Shown here: positions 1-17,278 of the stretch, one piece after another
How positions within the stretch are numbered: position 1 is the stretch's first letter
How the letters are laid out: the number at the start of each line of letters is the position of its first letter
NCBI GenBank assembly: GCA_001953115.1
Contig: LSSL01004105.1
Location: 1-17,278, forward strand
Source: Smittium mucronatum
Lineage: Eukaryota > Kickxellomycota > Harpellomycetes > Harpellales > Legeriomycetaceae
Reading direction: 5' to 3'
Length of the DNA stretch: 17,278 nucleotides
Translations under genes and position numbers: made by a program
Notes under the pieces: generated by a model
What the model was told of the DNA's origin: nothing
What the model saw: only the letters and a program-made list of their open reading frames with translations
The model's database searches: none

Positions 1-287
1 AAATCGATGTGCCTGAAACTGTCGACCATATCTTATTAAATTGCTCTCGATGGGAAAAACAGCGAAATGGGACGATCGGCCGGTTCATACCTGCACCAAT
101 CCGCTCAGACATAAAAAATCAACTTTCGAATTTCAATGAATCCCGGTTGGGGATAGTTGGAAAACTTCTTGGGGGGGGGGGGTCTAAACAAACTTTAAGT
201 CAGCTACAAGCTGACACCGCTGATCATAAATTTGTGTTGGAAACAGCCAAATTTCTGATTGGCATCCGCCTGCCCTCGAACACTTAA
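1..287 (+). pseudogene. LINE ORF2 C-terminus, copy 1 (partial, open)
   Basis: The frame is open from the window edge to a TAA at 285-287 and encodes about 95 residues of the C-terminal end of a LINE ORF2. It contains IDVPETVDHILLNCSRW, which is the second half (H-X4-C) of the CCHC zinc motif typical of LINE ORF2 C-termini; the two upstream cysteines fall outside the window. Further on, a run of 12 G (171-182) encodes four glycines, followed by a region ending in FLIGIRLPSNT. I see no break in the visible part, but it is a fragment with no endonuclease or reverse transcriptase, so it cannot be functional alone unless the missing 5' part lies upstream. Copy 2 at 479-790 is a close relative. In LINEs this domain is thought to bind RNA during target-primed reverse transcription. 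Confidence 0.8.
171..182 (+). repeat. G12 homopolymer inside LINE coding sequence (copy 1)
   Basis: Twelve consecutive G encode Gly-Gly-Gly-Gly in frame. The same length occurs at the equivalent place in copy 2 (674-685). Runs of this kind stand out sharply in such AT-rich DNA and are prone to slippage. Confidence 0.95.
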
Positions 288-448
288 GCTCCAGAGTTTA
301 AGTGATTCACCAGCCCCCTTGAACCAATGCCCTCGAGGTATGGAGCTGCTAGAGCGGCAGAGGGGAGTAGGGTGACAAATTTTTTTGAAAAATTTTCACT
401 TTTTTTAATTTTTTTAAATTAGTTTTTATAACTTTTTATTAACTTTAA

Positions 449-790
449 AATAGATTTCCCGAAAATAAAAAATTCCCGTGCCACGAAAATTGTCTCTTCT
501 ACAAAATCGATGTACCTGAAACTGTCGACCACATCTTATTAAATTGCTCTCGATGGGACAAACAGCGAAATGATACGATAGGTCGGTTCATATCTGCACC
601 TATCCGCTCAGACATAAAAAACAAACTTTCTAATTTCGATGAATCCCAGTTGGGGATAGTTAGAAAATTCCTTGGGGGGGGGGGGTCTAAACATAATTTA
701 AGTCAGCTGCAAGCTGACACCGCCGATCATAAATTTGTGTTGGAAACAGCCAAATTTCTGATTGGCATCCGCGTGCCCTCAAACACTTAA
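449..790 (+). pseudogene. LINE ORF2 C-terminal CCHC domain, copy 2 (truncated)
   Basis: The frame is open from 449 (after a TAA at 446-448) to TAA at 788-790; homology to the family begins around 479. It has the full CCHC motif of LINE ORF2 C-termini: Cys at 479-481 and 491-493, His at 530-532 and Cys at 545-547, giving C-X3-C-X12-H-X4-C. Downstream are the glycine run encoded by 12 G (674-685) and the ending FLIGIRVPSNT. Compared with copy 1 it has conservative changes (for example E to D in the SRW-D-KQRN stretch) and no stop. No ATG suits a start and no catalytic domain is present, so it is a 5'-truncated remnant. The zinc domain probably bound RNA in the intact protein. Confidence 0.8.
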
Positions 791-960: not shown

Positions 961-3960
961 TAAGGAATTTTCGGTTTAAAAAATTCCTCTCATATTTAAG
1001 AAATATTTTTATTTTAAAAATGATTTGCAAATTGATAAAAATTAAAAAAATTAAAAAAATTAAAATCAATATAAAGTTTGAAAGAAAATTAAATTTTGTT
1101 TTCGGAACAAAATTCAAATTATGAATTTGCAATTAAATCCCAAATAAAGGCGTACCGAAGGTTTTGGGTATCAAAGGCATTATTAATTAATAATTCTTAC
1201 TTATTATATGGGATTTTCATAGTAGAAGGTATCAGGGAAGTTATTTTTAGTATATAAACGTAATTTTTTGTTTGAGATTCCAAAATAATTAGCATAAAAA
1301 ATTTATCTATGTTCATATTTTGTTAAGAGATTAAATTTTTTTTTATTGAATTAAGAATGTTGATTTTTCTTCCATATCCCCAATTATGATGTTTTACTAT
1401 AAATTTAGGAGCGATATCTTTTTTTTAAAATTATCTATATCGCAAAAAAGTATGTTTTGTTAAAAAAAATAAAAAACTTAAAGAATAAAAAATAAAGAAT
1501 TAACATTAAAATTAAATCCAATTAGAATAAATAATTGAAAATTTAAAAAAAAATTCAAGTTTACTGGTATATTTATTCAAAAATTAGAATGAAAATTCAA
1601 TTAAGACGTTTAGAGGGGATAAAAAAAATTAATAGCTGAAAAGAATATTAATGGAATAAGAAACCGAAGTAAACACAATTATAAATTTCACATTGAAATT
1701 CATCAGTGCTAAAAGATTAAAAATTTAAATGAAAAATTTCAATATTTGTATTAAATAAATACATTTATACTTTCCCAGCATAGAAGCTGAAAATTTTTCA
1801 CAAATTCGTGTGTAAATAATGATATTAAACTTTTTACTAGATATTATTTCATAATTTTTGTTTTAATCAAAAAAAAATTGTAAAAAATATAAAACTTATA
1901 GAGGTTTAAACTTTTTAAAAAACTGTAATATAAAATAATCTTTTTTATTGGAAAAATCTGAATATAAAAATTGGTCTTCATAACCATCATCTAACAGATG
2001 GAATATAAAATTTTTAGATATTATTTAATACAAATAATAAAATTTGAATAGTTATTACAATCAATATTATTTATTTGTGTAAGATGAATATTTTTATTTT
2101 ATTCTATATAAAAAAAATTAATTTTTTGTTATTATATAATTTTTTTTAATGATTAGCTAAGGTATTTATTTTTTAGAATAAATAAATAAAGTGGTAAAAT
2201 ATGTATCAATTCACAAATGTAAGCAGAAGATTTTCTTGTACTAGTAATTATCTCATTAGCAATTATTTTTAGTATTTTTAGGCATCAGGTTTTCTTTTAA
2301 GCTTCTCTTAAATTGTTAAAATTTAGGTGCATTTTTTGAAGTTAAGAAATTTAATTAAAGTATTTAATTTCTCTAATTAATTTTGGTAAAATAATTTGTG
2401 TTTTATTTTTTAGATTTAATTTATATAAATAAATCAGTTTTTTGGAATGAGTGTATATTTTAATTATAAGAAATAAAATTATTATTATTATTAAAATGTG
2501 GATAAAAAAATATAAGTTTATAAGTGTCTTTATTATAAAAATTGTTTTATTTTTAATTGCTTTATAATTTAATTTGGCAGATATTAATAAAATTTTAATA
2601 AATATAAATTTTTTTTAATAGTTTTTTTTTCATCAAGAGTTAGGAAAAAAAGTCTATTTAACATAAAGTTTTCTTATGATAATCTTTTGTTAAATTTATC
2701 GTGATTATCTTTGAATACTTTGGTATCTTTTTACCATAAATGTCATATAATTTGCCGTTTTAATATAAATTTTAATATTTTTTTCCTATCATTAAAGTGA
2801 TATAGATTTTTTTTTCTATATTATCTTTATATTATTTTGATTTTTATCTTTTTTAAATTTATATAATCTCGTTTTAGATTGTTTGGATATTTTTCATTTA
2901 TATATTAGATTTATATTTAATCTATTCTAATATTATTAAATTTTTATTACCTTTAGTTATAATGATCTCTTTTTTTATATAAGCATAAATGCATATGTAT
3001 CAAGAAAATTTTCTAATTTAAAGCTCATTATTTTATTTTAATTATAAAATTTCTATAATTTGGGTTAATTAAGACTAATTTGTAAAAATTATCTAATTTC
3101 ATTTAAATACAAATTTGTAATCCATATTAATTATATCTGCATTGGAGTAAATTTTGTCTAAAAATTATAAAAAAATTGAAATTTTGTAAGAAATAAAACT
3201 CTACAAATCTAATATTTAAAAATATGGAATAGTTTTAATGAAGAAAATATTTTATAGTTTCCATGTTTCAGTGAAAGTCCCAAAAAATTATTTTATATCA
3301 AATCTAAGCTAAATTTTATATATAAACTATTTAGTTGTACTATAAGCCATTCTTATTCCCAATAAGGTTATTAGAAAAATGAAGATCCCTTTTTTCTGTT
3401 TTCAATATAAACGATTGTTTTTAATTTTGAAAATTCATTGGTAAAAAAATTTATCAATTAATTATGCAGTAAAAGTTCAATAAAACAGAATTCAATCTTA
3501 ATTAAATTTCCCCCATATACAGATGAAAACTTTTTATCTAAGGAATCAAAATTGATGTCTGATTTATTAGGTTCCTAACCTAAATAATCTATGCGTAAAG
3601 ATTCTAAATCATATTGCGTATTTTATAGAACAAATTTATACATCATATTTACATTTTCGACTGAATTAATGCTGCATGAAACAATCCTCAACCATTCACA
3701 CAACTAATCATTGCTTTATTCAACATAACATAATAATTATTTTCTATTTTAGTTTGAAAATTATTTGTAAATGAAATAAAATAAACTTTTTATAATCGTA
3801 TTCTCTATCACTTTCCAATAAACTGAATGATATAATCAGTTTTAATAATACCAAAATTTAAGAATGTAGCACTTTACTATTATTCCGATTATAATCCGTT
3901 AATATATTATATTTTTAGAACGGCCCGGATACCTCACATTTGAATTTTCCGTGTGTAATA
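961..3960. other. AT-rich intergenic DNA, no gene seen
   Basis: Three kilobases of extremely AT-rich sequence with frequent stops in all frames and many A or T runs. I find no convincing ORF, tRNA or mobile element. Two small perfect hairpins stand out: CTTATT-CCC-AATAAG at 3352-3366 and TTAGGTT-CCT-AACCTAA at 3567-3583. Base composition is slightly less extreme after about 3350, and a short GC-rich patch (aacggcccgg, near 3919) lies just before the structured segment at 3961. Confidence 0.7.
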
Positions 3961-4004: not shown

Positions 4005-4017
4005 AGCTCATTTTTTG

Positions 4018-4131
4018 ACCAATTTTTTTATTCAATATTCTTAAAAGGGTTTTCGATGATTTATTTATTTTTTTACCAATTTTTTTATTCAATATTCTTA
4101 AAAGGGTTTTCGATGATTTATTTAGTTTTTT
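4018..4131. repeat. Two-copy 57-bp direct tandem repeat
   Basis: The unit starts at accaattttt and includes ttcaatattcttaaaagggt and ttcgatgatttattta. It occurs at 4018-4074 and again at 4075-4131, with about one difference (ttatttat against ttatttag) before the copies end. The near identity suggests a recent tandem duplication. It sits 13 bp after the nested hairpin at 3961-4004. No coding sense is apparent. Confidence 0.9.
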
Positions 4132-5270: not shown

Positions 5271-6530
5271 CTATCGAACTGAGCCGGTTTTTAAGAAGAC
5301 GGATTTTATCCCCAGTTTGGCTCTGACCTGTTCCATGGCCGCAGACTTACTCACATTGGCAACCAGTCAGATTTCATTGTCGATTTCAACCTGGATCGGC
5401 TTGACTTTGGCTTCGCTAATGCCAAAGATCTCGCCTCCGTAACAGCAAATAGACATTAGAACCGAATTTATTAATTTTATTTTTAGGATAAATGGTACGT
5501 CGATATGTTTCAAGAAGTTTTATGCAGCGTAGAAAGCCTTTCTGACCTTATATTTATTGTTTTTGATGGTCCCAGACATGTCCCGTTTATAGTTCATAAT
5601 ATAAACCAAATATGTGCACTGATCAGTTTTTGGGATAAATTGGACTTGTAATATCAGATCAGAAGATTGAGGACCGGCGAAATTCATAACACCGCACTTG
5701 GATGCATTCACAGTCTATTCCCATGTGTTCGATCAATCAGTAATTTGATTTAATGCTATTTTAATATCGGCCTCTGATTCTGCCAATAGCACGGCGTCGT
5801 CGGCAAAGAGCAGCCCAGGTATCCTAGAGATGAGTCCAGGGACATATAAACCTTGAATACCCTTGAAAAAATCGTTGATGTAAAAATAGAATAGTATTGG
5901 AGATGCTGGGCAGCCTTGTCGCAACCCACACAGGTAGTCAGTAGTTTTGGAGACATAATCTCCAATCCTGACAGATATTTTTGGAGACCTTTACAGGCCC
6001 CAGATGGCGTTAAGTAAGCCCTCTCTTATTCCAGTTTCCTTCATTTTGTACAGATGTGCGGTGTGGAACACTCAGTCGTAGGCTTTGCCAATGTCAATAT
6101 AGCATATCAGGGGTTTTTTGTTTTTTATTTTTCTTCGCCGAGATATTTGGTATAGGGTGGTCGCTTGAGCGGCACACTCCTCGAAATTTCGAAATCCGGC
6201 TTGTTCTTTGACTAGAATTTCGTATTTCTTATCTATTTGTCCAATTTTGTAGCTAATATTTTGTATAATAGCTTCGTAAGGGTTGGAACCGTTAAATTCC
6301 TGATAGTTATCGAGGTCTTTCATATCTCCTCTTTTAGGTACCGGTACTACTATACTAATTTCCATATTATTCGGGATTTCCCTAGAATCGTACATTATGT
6401 TGATAATTTTGAAAATAATTTTCGCCATTTTTGACTTTGGAATATTTTCAGAGATCACCAGTTTCCATACCTCACTGGGTATTCCATCAGAGCCAAGAAT
6501 CTTGTTATTAGGCGTATCAGATAATGCCAT
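5271..6530 (-). pseudogene. Reverse transcriptase domain of LINE ORF2
   Basis: A single reading frame carries the whole domain, interrupted by stops at 6072-6074 (TGA), 5991-5993 (TAA), 5733-5735 (TGA), 5715-5717 (TAG), 5520-5522 (TAA), 5367-5369 (TGA) and 5271-5273 (TAG). Motifs in order: SDGIPSEVWKLV, KEQAGFR, the palm motif A region CYIDIGKAYD, LRQGCPASPILF, and the catalytic FADD box (FADDAVLLAES; the two Asp codons at 5796-5801). The thumb follows with AACNY-like CCYGGEIFG and a conserved VKPIQVEIDNEI stretch. Between 6300 and 6241 the open frame reads nonsense while the +1-shifted frame reads NLTVPTLTKLLYKILATK, so two compensating frameshifts are likely. The catalytic residues are retained, but the stops make it non-functional. 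Confidence 0.85.
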
Positions 6531-7195
6531 GGCAATACCAGATCATTTGATATTGTCGTAGCAAACTGGGAAGTAGTCTCAGTTGGTGGTTAGCAGTGAT
6601 TACTACTTAGTTGCACTGCAGCTATTTCCAGTAGAATAATGGCTAATTCGTCAAAATGATTATTTCAAATTTTAAGCCTTTTATTTTTTTCAGTTATTAT
6701 ATTTTTACTTTTATCATACACCGAGACGTCTGAAATGCTCCTAAGCGTATTCCCAGTGTATGATTTGACGGTTCTCCAGCAGTTTCTGGAGTCATTAGAA
6801 ATAATTTGTTCGTATAGTAATTATATTATTTTATCGTAGTAAATTTTACGATCAGATTTTATTGCATTAATTGCATTCGATTTGGCGATTACGTAATCGA
6901 TTTTGTCGATTTTTCCAAGCCGATAAACAATGTATTTATTCCTACGATTTTTGATAGTAGAAATTGTTTTTTCTACAAAGGTTTTGACCAGAACTCAATA
7001 GAAACAGTATTGTCTTGAAGCCGCTTCTATTCTGTCCATTCAGTATCAATAAGACCTTTAGAAAGCTAATTTATATCCATATCAGTATCAATTAATGGAC
7101 CAAATCTGTTACTATTGATTTATTGTTCGACGACCAATAGAATTCGATCCACTTTAGTTATTATTTTTTTAGAAGGAATTTCAAAGAATTGAAAT
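6530..7195 (-). pseudogene. ORF2 linker between endonuclease and reverse transcriptase (decayed)
   Basis: This stretch corresponds to the linker and finger region of ORF2. It has several stops in every frame, yet short coding-like runs remain on the - strand, for example LFLMTPETAGEPSNHTLGIR around 6800-6745. No motif can be named. It connects endonuclease and reverse transcriptase in the expected order and orientation. Confidence 0.55.
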
Positions 7196-7839
7196 TCTAT
7201 TCGGCAATGATCGGATATTATCAGATATGTCATGATTTTTGTTTGCTGTGCATGGGTTTTTTCTTCTGTTGAGTCCGGTGTAGGCTATATATGGTCGATC
7301 ATGCGACCAATTTCTCCATTATTATATCTAGAGCCTGGGGAATTCGTTACTTTGGACATTTGATGTCTCAAACCAAGCCTAGATATAAACCGGCTTGCCC
7401 TTGGGGAGTTCATATTAAAGTACCCGAGGATAATATTTTTTTTATATTTTGTTTTTACTTTTTGTATATGCCCAAAAATCTCATCTTTTGTCATAACATG
7501 TCTTAAGCCTGCGCTAGGTATGTGTACATTGGTGATAAGCATGTCGAATGCTTTTCCATTTAGATATTTTTCATGAATAATGCCAGATATCCATGTTTGG
7601 GAAGATTTAAATTCGCTTATTTGTAGTCCAGATTTATTCCTGACAGCCAATAGTAGCCCAGTGCCTCCTTTTTTAATATCAGTTTTAGCCTCAATACAAG
7701 TGTATCTGGGCAGTCTGTACCTGAATGATTTTTTATTTAAAAATGTTTCCTGGAGTGCCAGAATATCTGGCTGGGCAGAGTTGAGATAGTACTCAAGCTC
7801 TTCTACGGAATTTTTAATGACCCTGACATTAAAGTTCAT
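7196..7839 (-). pseudogene. Apurinic-type endonuclease domain of LINE ORF2
   Basis: Residues 1-184 are open (7839-7285). The family hallmarks are in order: the N-terminal Asn (MNFN, residue 4), the metal-binding Glu in ILALQET (Glu31), GGTGLLL (59-64), NVHIP (104-108), the GDFN-type motif at 139-142, the R-M-I-D-H motif just before the stop at 7285, and SDHCRIEFQF beyond that stop (codons near 7205-7225 on the + strand numbering). The GDFN motif reads G-Y-F-N: the catalytic Asp is Tyr140 (codon 7420-7422, TAC for GAC). With this loss and the stop that cuts off the SDH motif, the nuclease cannot be active. The other motifs are intact enough that the family assignment is firm. Confidence 0.85.
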
Positions 7840-7893
7840 AATTCTGAGCTTATTATTAAGCCCATAATTTTTGGAATTTAATTTGGGTCGTAT

Positions 7894-9811
7894 TTAATTA
7901 TTTTCATTATTCGATAAATCATTATTCATCAAATTTCCATTTTGATGATTTGCGCCAGTGGAATTCACGGATCGAAATTTTTTATTTTCTTCTTGTCGAA
8001 TTTTGGCATGTAGAGATTTTTCGATTTTTTTTATTTCATCTGGGCGCAGATTTATTCTTTTGTAGTCGCACGAACAAATCTCGTGACGCCATTGGCCGTT
8101 GCGCTGTTTTAATTTTTTTACTATAAACTCATCTTCCCTCAAGGAAAAGTTATAATTAATATGCCGTTTAACTGTATGCCTTTTGAGCTTTTGTATGTTG
8201 AGCGCGATATGTTTATCTACTCTTTTTATTGGTTTTATTTGATAATTCAAAAGTCCATAAGTGAATTCGATTTCATTAAGTCGTAATTTGGATGCGTGAT
8301 TGAGCCAATCATATAACTGGCTCTATTCGATCATATTGATCTTCTACATCGATGTCCGTTGAATACGGTATATTGGAGTCTATTCTTTCATTCTTGTAAA
8401 AATTCGCCTCATTTTTTTATTTGTGGGCTCGAATTTTCTTTTTCATCAGCCATAGCAGAAGGCGAGTTGAGCATCATATTATAATCGATATAAGCAGATG
8501 TAGCTTTTGCCTTATTTTTTCCAGATATAAGTATTTTTTCGCTTATTATTTCTTTACTTTGAGAAATAAATCCTTTAAGGTGTTTGAATTGAGTAACCTC
8601 AGGTTTATTAGACATACTATAAATTATAGTGTCTAATTCTATATTAAAATCAGATGTTTTTTGTTCTTCGATGGTCATTTCATCGTCCTCGGAGCTTCCC
8701 GAGATATCTTCAGTTTTTTTGCTATCGGGGTTTATTTCGGCACCCTCTTTAAAATATTTGTCATTAAATTTTATCTCGAAATTTAAATTTTCTGATTTTT
8801 GGGGACTGTCTTTTGACCGGTCGTTCCCCTCATACGTTTAATTACCTTTTCAGTTTGTTTTATCGAGGTAATTGGCCCGTTGAATTTACACGGTGTCAAA
8901 TTAATTTCATTATTAATTGCTGATTTGCATCTTTTTTTAAGATCCGGGAACTCCGACTTCCAATGATTCATATTTTTGCAATAGTTGCAAGCCTTCTTGC
9001 AGCCCTTGTAGAAGATGTTGATTTTTCCTTCCTCATGATCTAGGAAGCTCGGCAAAACTGTGTTTTTATCATCATCATTTTTTTTTATTTTTAAAATAAC
9101 CTTAATTCCATATGTCAGATATTCACTGGTCCCCTTTTTGCACCATGCGCTGATGCCGCATATAGTACCAAAGGGTGAAAGCTCTTGGTTTATTAGGGCT
9201 GTAATATCTTTGATGCTAAGATCCCCACAATTGGGGATGTTTATAACCACAAAATCTTGCTCTATCCGAACTGTTTGGTACAGCTCGGCTCGTTTTTTAT
9301 TAAACATTAAAGCCTTAGACATAAGATATTGGCATCATCAGTATTATCAAAGATAAAATACTTTATTTTTGCCCTGGGGTCATATTTTCTCATGTGGTAT
9401 ATGTCCGATATATACCGTGAGACATACTCGAGATCATTTACATAGTCATCCTTGCATTGGCTCCAGGAACAGCCTATTTTGCCGTCTGATCCGCCAAAAC
9501 AGAACTTCTTTAGACATCTTTTTTCCCAATCATGAAGCAGATGTTTAACAGAGACCTCTGAGTAGAGGCTCATTTCAATAATGCTTTGGAATTTGGGCGG
9601 GGTTTTTTTTGGGTTTTCTTGTTTTATAGTTTTTTTTGGTTTTATGATTTTTTTGCTTATTTTGGGTGTCGGCCGAATATCGGCTCTGAGGCCCAGGGAA
9701 GTTTACCACCACTTGGTTTTGAAGACCCGTGGTGGACTTACTTGCAGCCTTCCCTTTACCAACCTTCGAACATAATGGCCTGGTACGTTTAGAGTGTCTT
9801 GGCTCAACCAT
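7894..9811 (-). pseudogene. LINE ORF1, nucleic-acid-binding protein (frameshifted)
   Basis: This stretch reads as one ancestral ORF of roughly 640 residues now split by frameshifts near 9573, 9315, 8785, 8400 and 8310. The start is the ATG at 9811 (MVEPRHSKRTRP), giving a lysine/arginine-rich N-terminus. The piece from 9322 to 8783 has an RRM-like start (VVINIPNCGDLSIKDI) and then a zinc knuckle of CX2CX4HX4C type at its residues 112-125, in which the last Cys is Phe (codon at 8948-8950). The tail (8250-7894) is basic and then Asn-rich (NGNLMNNDLSNNENN) before the stop at 7894-7896. In LINEs ORF1 packages the RNA. The RRM reading is tentative; the knuckle, position and order make the ORF1 assignment fairly safe. 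Confidence 0.75.
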
Positions 9812-10660: not shown

Positions 10661-11800
10661 TTAGAGAGTTTTGCACTTAGTTTGAGGAGCATACCAACTA
10701 GAAGTAGCAGTTGCTGTAACTTCACAAGGCTTGGCATCAATGATCTGCTCTGATTCAGCTTTAGCTTGCTCGATATTGTACTCAGAAACGATCAGCTCAT
10801 TTTTGTTAGTAAAGTCTTTGTACAACCAGTTAGAGTTTGATCCGACAAGTCTGAGCTCATATGAGTCAATCAATCCCCACAATCCAGGTTTGGTAATAGT
10901 GAAGTTTCTGTTATCGAGGGTTTCTGAGAAAGCTGCAGCTACTAGAGCATGAACCTTGGTGCTAGGATGAACGGAATCAACGAACAGGTACTTATCAGAG
11001 TTTTCACATGATGAAATGAGAGTACCATTTTCTACAACATAGCATGGCTGATCTGCGACGGTGATGTTGAGTGCGGCAATAGTAGCATTATCGGCGACGA
11101 TATTTAAAGCTTTATAGAATTCAAATACGCGGATATAATCAATATCCTTCTTGTAGGAGTTCTCAAGAACAGCAATTTGTGCTGCTAGTCTTCTGTTGGT
11201 GAGGGCAACATAGGTATCAATGTTTGTGCTAGCGCTTTGAGGCAAGGACCTGACCAATGGGGTAACTGACAAATCGGGAATGTCAGTGACAACAATCTTT
11301 CTGTAACCAATATCGTACAACATACTGACTCCATCGATAATATTCTGTACAAGACCATCAGCGAATTGATCCAAATCAACAGACTCTGTAGCCAATTCAC
11401 CTGCAGCAGTGATGAAATCGTTAGTTCCTATTTCTACAACTACTACATCGTCTCTAGTGCTGTTGACGGGGAATTTTCCTCCAAAAGTCTGGTTGAACAT
11501 AACTATCTGATCAATAGCGCTAGGAACAGTGGCATTGGTACCGGTTATACATTCAATAAATGTGTTGTTGGAATTGGCACCACCAAATGCATAATTTATC
11601 AAAGTAAAGCCATTTGTGTGCGATAGATATTCGTTCCATACAGGTCCATTGCAGAATCTACCAGGGTAATAAGGGACTGGGCTGGCAGAGTTTCCGGCAT
11701 TACCAATATCTGAAAGACTATCGCCGAAGACTACCAAGTAATTTTCGGATGCGGATACGGCCAGGCCCAAGACAGCAGATAATGCAGCAAACTTAAACAT
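10661..11800 (-). CDS. Secreted GDSL (SGNH) esterase/lipase
   Basis: This is an intact, intronless gene for a 379-residue SGNH-fold hydrolase that should cleave ester bonds outside the cell. Residues 1-17 are a signal peptide (hydrophobic FAALSAVLGLAVSA, cleavage likely after A17). Block I is FGDSLSDIGN with catalytic Ser28; block II is NYAFGGANS with the oxyanion Gly at 73 or 74; block III is GTND with Asn127; block V is VDSVHPSTKVH with Asp275 and His278. All four catalytic or oxyanion positions are present. Eight N-X-S/T sequons (Asn 78, 89, 103, 113, 238, 245, 258, 299) fit secretion. About 95 residues follow block V and end in a Cys-containing tail (TSSWYAPQTKCKTL). The start fits the signal peptide. 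The natural substrate is unknown: lipids, acetylated sugars or host esters are possible. It resembles fungal secreted GDSL lipases of the thermolabile-haemolysin-like group; no specific symbol is justified. Confidence 0.93.
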   Translation of the reverse strand: MFKFAALSAVLGLAVSASENYLVVFGDSLSDIGNAGNSASPVPYYPGRFCNGPVWNEYLSHTNGFTLINYAFGGANSNNTFIECITGTNATVPSAIDQIVMFNQTFGGKFPVNSTRDDVVVVEIGTNDFITAAGELATESVDLDQFADGLVQNIIDGVSMLYDIGYRKIVVTDIPDLSVTPLVRSLPQSASTNIDTYVALTNRRLAAQIAVLENSYKKDIDYIRVFEFYKALNIVADNATIAALNITVADQPCYVVENGTLISSCENSDKYLFVDSVHPSTKVHALVAAAFSETLDNRNFTITKPGLWGLIDSYELRLVGSNSNWLYKDFTNKNELIVSEYNIEQAKAESEQIIDAKPCEVTATATSSWYAPQTKCKTL

Positions 11801-12060
11801 TTTTAAATTTTATATTTAGTAACAGATATAACTAAGAAATTGAGATAAAACAATTATATTGAATTAATATATCAACGATGGCGATTTTTCTAACTGAATT
11901 TTTCAAGAATCAATACTGAAACTGAATGATGATAATTTCAAATATTTGTGGAAATTCAACCAGTATTTATACAGAAATTTAGTATAAATCCGATGAAAAT
12001 GTGGAATTTTAATTCATTAATGATATTCATGTTTGAGAATATTTTTTATTCTCGCTGCCA
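11801..12060 (-). promoter_or_regulatory. Upstream region of the GDSL gene
   Basis: AT-rich 5' flank with no other ORF of note. It contains a TATA-like box (listed separately) and an A-rich context directly before the start codon (aaatttaaaaATG on the - strand). It ends where the visible part of the long inverted repeat begins; the repeat may extend into it. Confidence 0.5.
11964..11971 (-). promoter_or_regulatory. TATA-like box of the GDSL gene
   Basis: The - strand reads TATAAATA about 165 bp upstream of the GDSL start codon, inside GTATAAATAC. It matches the eukaryotic TATA consensus, but such strings are common in AT-rich DNA, so the support is modest. Confidence 0.4.
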
Positions 12061-12224
12061 AGAATCGATTTTTTGGAGAATTACAAAAAAAGATTATAAC
12101 ATTTGCACTTTCTAATCTTTTGGGCAATGTTTACTTTTACAAAATGGTCCCCAATCGGGACACTCTTCTTTTGGAACAAGATTATTTGTTTCATGATCGT
12201 TACCCATATGACGAAGCTATTTAA
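12033..12224 (+). other. Unrecognised 63-codon ORF partly inside the left arm
   Basis: ATG at 12033 to TAA at 12222-12224, of which all but the first nine codons lie in the inverted repeat. The predicted product ends in the mixed-composition stretch KMVPNRDTLLLEQDYLFHDR plus YPYDEAI, unlike the Ile/Lys/Asn/Phe-rich translations of the AT-rich surroundings. The matching part of the right arm (17278-17115, - strand) is identical and leaves the window. I recognise no family. It could be an exon, a gene relic or chance; composition is the only argument. Confidence 0.2.
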
Positions 12225-12803
12225 ACATTCCTATAGTTATAATACTAACTTATGCATCTCCCCTTTTCCAATAGAATGCGTTTTTTAGAAATGAGAAAAA
12301 TATATTCATTAATTCCATGAATCTATTGCTATCACAAAAAAAAAATAGCTGAACAAAATTCGTTGACCTAAAAGCATCGAACTTCCATTTTTATGTTATT
12401 ACGATAAAATTCACTTTTCGTTACAAATGTGCGAATTCCTGAAATAGATACCCGAGCCCCAAAGTAGTAAATTTTATAAATATGATTACCAAGATCTATT
12501 CCATATAAAATTGTAAATAATAGGAGAAATTATGTGTTCAAGATTATAAGTTTTATTGGAATGGATTTGAATTAATAAACACAATTATTTATTAATTTTT
12601 ATTAATTGCTCGAAAATAAAAATTAACCAATGTATTATTAGATCTATAATCAATGAAATAGGTAGCAAATCTCTGCTTCTCTTAAATAAAATATTAACTG
12701 TTAGGTGAAAATGCAAGACTAGAAATTATGGTTTATAAAAATCGCTAATGGAGCTCAATAATTATAATTTCTGTTAAAAATACTCTCCTTGACATATATT
12801 ATT
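12061..12803 (+). repeat. Long inverted repeat, left arm (743 bp visible)
   Basis: Every base of 12061-12803 pairs with 29339 minus its position in the right arm (16536-17278). I compared the arms in consecutive 60-base blocks and found no mismatch and no indel. The inner border is sharp: identity ends at 12803/16536. The outer border is unknown, because the partner of 12061 is the last base of the window. The arm holds no known gene, only a 63-codon ORF of unknown meaning. It may be a terminal inverted repeat of a non-autonomous element, an inverted duplication, or an assembly or replication palindrome. Confidence 0.97.
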
Positions 12804-15800
12804 TATACTTTTATTCTGAAATATTTATTGTCTGAACACTTTTATAAATCATAGCCATTTCTCAATGTAAATAGTAATCAATTATTGAAGACTGAAGAAA
12901 AGGAATATTCTTAATTTTGTTATTCCGACCCAATTCGATATCTCAGTCTAATAGTAGTAATGAAACAATAAAATAACATTTGATATCGTACTCACATTAT
13001 TTTAAGTGTCTATAAAGTAGTTAATAATGAATATCGGATACATTATTATAATAAATATGAGTGTTTATTATATTATTAACAAACCTGCTAAAATATTTTA
13101 AAACAATTTTCAAAAGAAAAAAACCTTTTATTAGCATAAAAGTGTGCAATTAGTCCAAAATAACTTTTTAAAAATAAAAAATTCTATAACTTGATAACTG
13201 CAAAAATTTAGTTATTTACATAAACAATATACTTATTAGATTTACATCAAGCCTTAGAGCCCGATTAATAGTGCTTTAAAATACTATATTAAAAACTCAT
13301 AAGTCATATTAGCCATTTTCAGTTCTAAATTTTAAAGTTAAATTTTCATTTAATAAGGTCATTTATTTAAATATATCAGTTTTATTTCATTATAGTTTCA
13401 TTTTTTTAAGAATTTTGAATAAATTCACTTATAGAAAAATATTTGATCTCTCCATTTTTCTTTGTTGGATTTTGCTGTTCTAATACACCGTTTTTTCAAC
13501 ATTATGGGATTCGTTTAGACATCTTGAAAGCACATAACGGCTTCTTAGTTAAGTATGTGCATATTAATAAACAAAATGGTGATGAAAATATTGAACTATT
13601 TACATTTCATCTACTACTTGAGTACTTGTAATAAAATATTATAGAATTTTCATAAATTTGTGTATTTTGGGGAAAATAACAATTTACATTTCAAAAAATC
13701 TTAATTCTGGAAAACATTTGGTTGATCCGGCTGATGTTATGTACAGCATTCAATAGTCCATATACTATGCAAATCACATATTTAGCCTCAGAAAAGATCA
13801 AATATTGGAAAATGTTTATTATAAAAATAAAGGGATATAATAAGGTTAATAACTTTAGAATTTTTTTGTTTATTTGCTAGAAAATTGAGGGGGATTTTTT
13901 AAAATAAGAATTAAATTAATTAGTAATGGTTAATTTCAGATTAAGTTTGATAATTTAAATTAGAAAAAATATCATTTTTAAAATCTTTCCGTTTATGATA
14001 TTATTTTTTGATTTTATTATCAAATTTATTATAACTAAATATAAATTTCAATACAAAAATATCCCAGATTATGTTTTTAGTTGTTTCAAATTAATTTGGA
14101 CATGTAAATATCACTGATATTTATAAAAATCGGGTTTTTAAAAGTATTCTATCGTTTCGATGTATGAATAGGATAGCTTGAAAGTCTGAAAGCCATGAAT
14201 ATATTTTTAATATGTTGAACTCAGTCGGAAAAAATTGATAGTCAGCAAAAAAAACATTTAAATAGAAAAAAAGCTATAATATAACTTTCAGACCTCCCGA
14301 AATTTCGATTTTTGATTTTTGATTTTTGATTTTTATACGCACTTAACGTGTCTTTGTTGAATCAAATTAGTATAAAAGTATCAATAAAATATTGTATCGA
14401 TTTTCATCAATCCATCCAGAGAAACAAAAATTTGATTAAATTAAGGGTATGTTTTTTTGAGTATCATTGTCCAAAGAAATTAACTAAATAATCGGCTTCA
14501 ATAATAAAAAATTTAATCATTACATTAGCTAGGTTTTAAAAGTAGATTGTATATGTTTTTAAAACTCTTAGTCATTATAAAACTGAATAGTTCCATTAGA
14601 CATAACTAAATAATCATATTTCTTGGTAATATTAAATTAAGTTTACATGAACTGAAAAAAAAATGGGCTAAAAAAAGATAAATTAGGCGGTCACAATTTC
14701 AATAGGTCTCACCGCTGTTATTTGATAATTTAGTGTTCTTTTTACAATAACTCAGAAAACTGAATTAACAAATCAGAAATTTGGCGAAAATGATAAAAAA
14801 AGTTTTCAAATATACACGTGCACTAGAAACGTTCAAATTTCTCAGAATTTAGTTACATATAAATTTCAATGGTTGTTTAAATCAGGGGTAATGAAAAAAA
14901 TATGCATTTGAAAATGAGAAATATCTTTAAGCTGGTATTAGATTTACTCGAAAGTTTATTATCAACAAGTGATATCTACATAATGGAAATTATTTGAGTA
15001 TCTAACACTAACAAATTTAATCATCTTAGGGATGGTGAAACAAAGAAAAAACTCAGTTTGAGAAAAATTAACATATTTTATTATAAATTAGCAGTGTAAA
15101 TTATTTAGCTGTACATAATGCGAATGAAAAAAGCACGAACTGATGAATAGGAGTTTATCATATTTTTTCATCCGAAAGAGGTTAATTATATAAAATTTTA
15201 TGCCAAGCCAATTGTGAATATCACAAAATAGATAATATTATTCTTTTAGCCAATAAAATTAATCTTGGCAAATATTAGTCATAGAACTGCCCGATATCAT
15301 CAACAATTATAAATATCTGTAATATTTAAAAAAATTTGTAAAGTAAAATGAACAGCAAATGAAATGCTAATGTTAAAAAAACCCCTTAAAGATGAAAATT
15401 GGGTAGTCAAAAAACTTATCGAATTCTTGTGAGATATTGTTTATACCAATAAAATCTGTAAAGGTATTGAAATAATTAAAGATAAAAGAAATGTGTGGAC
15501 TTTAGTTAGTCTATCGCAGTAAAGGTTAAAAGTGTTAGCGAAGGCATTTTATGTCAAAAAAACAAATTTTCCCTTTTTGTGCTTTATTATAAATTTATAA
15601 TTGAAGTTTATGTAAGCTAAATTGCATATGATGAATGGTAAAAAACACATTAATATATAGGAAAAAACTTCAAATTTATTAAATAATTGTCACATATAAC
15701 TAATTATGATGAATTTATAATGGGAATTATGCTCCACTGACAGTGAAGATATATTTGTTCCTAATTATAAAAATGGATTTTATTCATTATGAATTAAAAA

Positions 15801-16535
15801 AGTTTGATGCTTGGCAATCTATAAGTCTAAAATTCATTCAAGCTTCGGATTTATTTATCAGAAAAGTCGAACATTAGTATCCAGTACATGTTTAAGAAAA
15901 ATTAAAATTACCCAACAAATAAATAAAATGAACGCCGACTTTTCAGAAAAAATAGAATTAGTCCTACATATATTTCATTATTGGTTACTAAAAGAAAACT
16001 AAATTAGCTCTATACTTTTCATATTACCACGAAAGTGGTGAAAATTTTACTGAATAACAGTTCTCCTATGAATTATGTATAGTACAGAAATCGGGTATTT
16101 ATGCATTTATAAAATAAAAGATCCGTTTTTGAGAAATTTGAGATAGATAAATGGGAGGTCAAAATGCAAAAAAACCCGGAGTAAAATATATTAAGGCCTC
16201 CAATAGTGATTTACAAGAAAAATATTTCTTCATTATAATAATTGTACTATGATTTTTTATCTTTTGAAAATAATATTTAAAAATAAAAAATTGTTAAAAC
16301 TCGAAGGATATATTATAGATCGCAAAGATACTATAACAAAAATGGGTGATATAAACATTAAAAAAAAAAAGTTTCTTAGATACAATGAAGTTCATAGCCT
16401 GAGAAATATTGAAAAAGAACATCAATTAATTTGAAAGGATGGCTGTAAAAACATTCCATATGCAACTTTACATTAAATTTTTATGGGAAATGGGATGATT
16501 TAATAACTTAAAAGTAATATGATACTAAAATTATT
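12804..16535. other. Spacer between the inverted-repeat arms, no convincing gene
   Basis: A 3,732-bp AT-rich stretch enclosed by the perfect inverted repeat. The longest ORFs are about 60 codons (13443-13631, 15811-16002, 16249-16434, all +) and none shows a recognisable motif; no transposase, integrase, reverse transcriptase or tRNA is seen. The first of these, which includes FQHYGIRLDILKAHNGFLVK, has a slightly more protein-like composition than its surroundings. The spacer also contains a short GATTTTT tandem array. Confidence 0.7.
14307..14334. repeat. (GATTTTT)4 minisatellite
   Basis: Four perfect tandem copies of the 7-mer GATTTTT. It lies roughly in the middle of the spacer between the inverted-repeat arms (arithmetic centre about 14670). 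Confidence 0.95.
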
Positions 16536-17278
16536 AATAATATATGTCAAGGAGAGTATTTTTAACAGAAATTATAATTATTGAGCTCCATTAGCGATTT
16601 TTATAAACCATAATTTCTAGTCTTGCATTTTCACCTAACAGTTAATATTTTATTTAAGAGAAGCAGAGATTTGCTACCTATTTCATTGATTATAGATCTA
16701 ATAATACATTGGTTAATTTTTATTTTCGAGCAATTAATAAAAATTAATAAATAATTGTGTTTATTAATTCAAATCCATTCCAATAAAACTTATAATCTTG
16801 AACACATAATTTCTCCTATTATTTACAATTTTATATGGAATAGATCTTGGTAATCATATTTATAAAATTTACTACTTTGGGGCTCGGGTATCTATTTCAG
16901 GAATTCGCACATTTGTAACGAAAAGTGAATTTTATCGTAATAACATAAAAATGGAAGTTCGATGCTTTTAGGTCAACGAATTTTGTTCAGCTATTTTTTT
17001 TTTGTGATAGCAATAGATTCATGGAATTAATGAATATATTTTTCTCATTTCTAAAAAACGCATTCTATTGGAAAAGGGGAGATGCATAAGTTAGTATTAT
17101 AACTATAGGAATGTTTAAATAGCTTCGTCATATGGGTAACGATCATGAAACAAATAATCTTGTTCCAAAAGAAGAGTGTCCCGATTGGGGACCATTTTGT
17201 AAAAGTAAACATTGCCCAAAAGATTAGAAAGTGCAAATGTTATAATCTTTTTTTGTAATTCTCCAAAAAATCGATTCT
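16536..17278 (-). repeat. Long inverted repeat, right arm (cut by the window end)
   Basis: Reverse complement of 12061-12803 over all 743 bp, with no difference found. The repeat is still identical at the last base, so the arm continues or ends outside the window. It includes the mirrored copy of the short ORF (17278-17115, - strand). If the duplication extended another 260 bp or more, the mirrored GDSL start codon would lie near 17539 on the + strand. Confidence 0.97.

Follow-up and report, generated by a model that had tools for sequence, protein, structure and literature searches.

A perfect inverted repeat at a contig end of Smittium mucronatum is most likely a product of draft assembly

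Redundant or foldback contig ends are a type of artefact of short-read draft assemblies. Local inverted duplications arise by template switching or break repair, and foldback or long-terminal-inverted-repeat (long-TIR) DNA transposons carry long inverted arms round a spacer. The window analysed here, which is the entire contig C2006 of the insect-gut fungus Smittium mucronatum (17,278 bp), closes with an inverted repeat that resembles each of these systems in part. Like a redundant or foldback contig end, the duplicate in C2006 is found exactly at the end of the contig, repeats earlier sequence without a single difference and lacks a separate flank, as is expected of a contig-end assembly artefact; the other redundant ends seen in this assembly lie between separate contigs, whereas the duplicate in C2006 is the same contig in reverse, an arrangement found at 0 of 26 sampled contig ends. 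Like a local inverted duplication, the locus has two inverted copies, a spacer of kilobase size and a sharp inner boundary, but its outer boundary and second flank are out of view. Long inverted arms round a spacer are shared with foldback and long-TIR transposons, although no third copy of the arm was found in the 73.8 Mb searched, nor any element-like content in the spacer. The most likely origin of the repeat is the draft assembly itself, with a small local duplication as the alternative; a mobile element is improbable. The features of the locus are the following:

12061 to 12803, plus strand: left arm, 743 bp, 26.6% GC; its sole other match in the searched genome is the right arm
12804 to 12813, no strand: inner-edge partial match, 8 of 10 bases matching the reverse complement of 16526-16535; possible annealing homology
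12804 to 16535, no strand: spacer, 3,732 bp, 23.9% GC; coding signal not found
13573 to 13759, plus strand: old dispersed repeat in the spacer, about 190 bp; 39 other places scored, 69-80% identical
16536 to 17278, minus strand: right arm, reverse-complementary to the left arm at every base, truncated where the contig stops

Compared base by base, each arm is the exact reverse complement of the other over all 743 positions, which bears out the perfect 743-bp inverted repeat with a 3.7-kb spacer that the sequence-only reading had described. The first mismatch of the pair is the 744th base, on the inner side, and clear similarity fades there within about 15 bases; BLASTN gives the pair as 753 bp with 2 mismatches, and a repeat scan of the window as an inverted pair of 762 nt at 99%. 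Position 17278, at which the right arm stops, is the final base of the contig, so 743 bp is a lower bound for the arm length. Because the contig ends in the right arm, the right flank is absent and a target-site duplication cannot be seen.

The genome searched comprises 73,818,640 bases in 2,957 contigs, the smallest noticed being of 10,099 bases. The published S. mucronatum assembly (PMC5954228) totals 102.35 Mb and consists of 7,797 scaffolds longer than 1 kb; the smaller ones, amounting to about 28 Mb, seem to be left out of the searched set. The arm search of these 73.8 Mb gave two candidates, which both match and are the arms themselves. The last 160 bases of the right arm match no contig but C2006 in the 73.8 Mb searched of the published 102.35 Mb, and exact matches to its last 24 bases in the same 73.8 Mb are confined to the same two places. 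This lack of a separate right flank on the searched contigs counts against a real second copy. The 200 spacer bases that precede the right arm have no second match in the 73.8 Mb and no alternative continuation on any searched contig, which counts against a false join.

An end-of-contig artefact, by which the assembly re-entered 12061-12803 backwards at the end of C2006, is given a probability of about 0.5, the odds for all readings being judgements that were not computed. On this reading no independent second copy exists, and the right arm is the segment 12061-12803 rewritten in reverse. At 16535/16536, a false join or a chimeric junction of the foldback type would have led the short-read assembly back into used sequence, and this join would have no counterpart in the chromosome. 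The missing right flank in the searched contigs favours the artefact, and so does the asymmetry between the left arm, which the contig passed, and the right arm, in which it stopped, since this is not obviously expected of a real repeat. By analogy with its sister genomes, the S. mucronatum assembly was presumably made from short reads: for four sister Harpellales genomes (PMC5954228) and that of Capniomyces stellatus (PMC4974312), the assembler was Ray 2.3.1 and the libraries were 500-bp paired ends, to which mate pairs were added for two of these five (PMC5954228, PMC4974312). If S. mucronatum had short inserts only, read pairs would be unable to place a 743-bp arm.

Several points weigh against the artefact. 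The positions 16535/16536 are within continuous sequence, so some reads should support the junction, and a rare chimera should lose out at high coverage. A false join should leave another continuation of the spacer, and none is present in the 73.8 Mb, unless it is in an unsearched scaffold. The right-flank scaffold may itself exist among the approximately 28 Mb of published scaffolds outside the searched set.

Some other contig ends of the assembly are redundant. The last 2,801 bases of C1810 are contained in C2239 at 100%, and the last 724 bases of C74 are the reverse complement of the first 724 of C1800, with the same terminal base in both contigs. C1800 has at least 3,999 bases in common with C2206 at 99.9%, and C2206 extends beyond that point. 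Four contig starts, from the 20 that were sampled, were searched: two are unique, C2850 has a 96% match, and C1800 is duplicated, its start being 100% identical to C2206 over 740 bases and to C74 over 724. As some contig ends rewrite identical DNA, perfect identity alone is no evidence of a second copy, of recency or of gene conversion, and the earlier argument that it implies a recent event or gene conversion is unsafe. These redundant ends are nevertheless analogies and represent a different defect, because they lie between separate contigs, and the orientation of one contig to another is arbitrary. The 724-bp example of C74 and C1800 is moreover a dispersed repeat, matched at nine more places with 75-78% identity. 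The pairs C2756/C2723 and C2915/C2714 also look redundant, seen only as matches with identical coordinates.

The 26 sampled ends, none of which is self-inverted like that of C2006, are the first 10 kb of 20 contigs (187,167 non-N bases; in two of these starts N exceeds one half) and the opposite ends of six contigs from the same 20. The nearest case among them is a 134-bp inverted pair at 90% at the start of C1950, and the others are palindromes of 24-30 bases. Six further contig-end pieces of 2.0-3.6 kb, which are too short to reveal a 5.2-kb structure, yielded a single inverted pair, which lies at the start of C518 and is diverged (81% identity over 172 bp). Across 47 loci, no inverted pair other than that of C2006 reaches 200 bp with an identity of 95% or more. 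The lack of a second case in the sampled ends counts against a frequent artefact.

The main rival, which is a serious possibility held with less confidence than the artefact, is a real and ordinary local inverted duplication, in which at least 743 bp were copied in reverse about 3.7 kb away by template switching or break repair. The contig would have broken at or within the second copy, where the reads were unable to distinguish the two exits, and contigs that break off at the boundary of a shared repeat are found in the assembly, C74 and C1800 being examples. A duplication is consistent with the sharp inner boundary, with the presence of the arm at two places only in the 73.8 Mb, with a junction that lies within continuous sequence, with a spacer end that has no alternative continuation on the searched contigs and with the absence of self-inverted ends from the sample of 26. 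The other flank, however, is on no searched contig, even where an overlap of 24 bases would suffice, about 28 Mb of scaffolds being outside the search, and only the right side of the repeat stopped the assembly. The 8 of 10 matching bases past the inner edge could be annealing homology; a match of at least this size, which was a post hoc observation, is reached by 0.25% of 200,000 random spacer pairs. Annealing during template switching could account for it both in vivo and in vitro, a chimera made in vitro being equally expected to show it, and it therefore does not choose between the duplication and the artefact. Among the explanations offered by the sequence-only reading, the inverted duplication thus stays as the main rival and the element is left unsupported, while misassembly, which had been named there as the refuting outcome, is now favoured; neither the artefact nor the duplication is proven.

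If the duplication is true, it is a small ordinary rearrangement, unless the arms prove much longer. A more far-reaching form of this reading, in which the two real copies round the 3.7-kb spacer might be what can be seen of far longer palindromic arms that gene conversion keeps identical, is improbable. The locus serves mostly as a caution: where a perfect inverted repeat runs up to the final base of a draft contig, little can be concluded about mobile elements or gene conversion, since the contig determines how much of the repeat is visible and the identity of the arms may stem from a single pool of reads.

A long-TIR mobile element, either of the foldback type or a non-autonomous DNA transposon, is very improbable. 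It agrees with the locus in geometry only, as long identical arms flank a spacer without a detected gene. Several copies of the arm had been expected of an element in a genome search with one arm, but the two places found in the 73.8 Mb are both in C2006, and the long-TIR element was rejected as the main reading for lack of a further copy of the arm. In the spacer, nothing dispersed was found apart from an old MITE-like repeat, ten frames carry no Pfam domain, and the outer end of the element, with any target-site duplication, would lie beyond the contig; the foldback or non-autonomous element that had been proposed is unsupported on these grounds.

The absence of a transposase inside the repeat, on which that proposal had remarked and which bears on autonomous elements only, agrees with the domain search, which found 0 Pfam families at E 0.1 in 10 frames from the arm and the spacer. 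These were the longest of 38 stop-to-stop frames of at least 40 aa in 11800-17278, in an intronless reading that left out the GDSL frame described below and the right-arm repeats of left-arm frames. The longest stop-to-stop frame in 11810-16535 has 74 aa, while the longest frame of 200 mononucleotide shuffles averages 81 aa and reaches 74 in 64.5% of them. In the window as a whole, no Rfam family reaches its gathering score and no tRNA was found.

The locus is equally unlikely to be the centre of a larger palindrome, whose true arms would continue past 12061 into the left part of the contig: the outer end of the arm is merely the contig end and a separate right flank was not found in the 73.8 Mb searched, but a chimera predicts the same absence and nothing positive points to such a palindrome.

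The old dispersed repeat of the spacer was found in a search with the whole spacer, in which 40 of 60 candidates were scored, one of them being the spacer itself; all 39 non-self matches among these fall in one stretch of about 200 bp. In an eight-row alignment, two rows of which are identical and come from redundant contigs, the two ends of 13573-13759 resemble a pair of inverted repeats when judged by eye. These sequence features suggest a MITE. Nothing connects it to the arms.

The left end of the contig is probably explained by a common repeat. The window positions 1-473 and 504-905 are adjacent copies of it, 88-92% identical by different measures, and the repeat has 1,346 candidate places in the genome, 40 of which were scored, many of the listed ones being near contig starts. 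The first 165 bases of C2006 equal the last 165 of C821, within that repeat of 1,346 candidate places (40 scored).

On the minus strand, 10664-11800 encodes a GDSL-family hydrolase (PF00657, E 6.7e-21), whose best named relative is an S. mucronatum protein of 84% identity. C821 encodes that 379-residue relative, as compared by eye. Smittium relatives of the GDSL protein carry the source names "Thermolabile hemolysin" or "Secreted effector protein SseJ", which are names only. The GC content is 41.7% in the GDSL gene, 23.9% in the spacer, 22.7% in 11801-12060 and 17.1% in 1001-3250. Broken LINE-like frames occupy 6072-9322 on the minus strand; they include an endonuclease-like match of 21.1 bits, under Pfam's cut-off of 24.5, and reverse-transcriptase-like and zinc-knuckle-like pieces that are recognized by eye and have no Pfam match. 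A tandem 57-bp unit is present at 4010-4123 in two copies at 98%.
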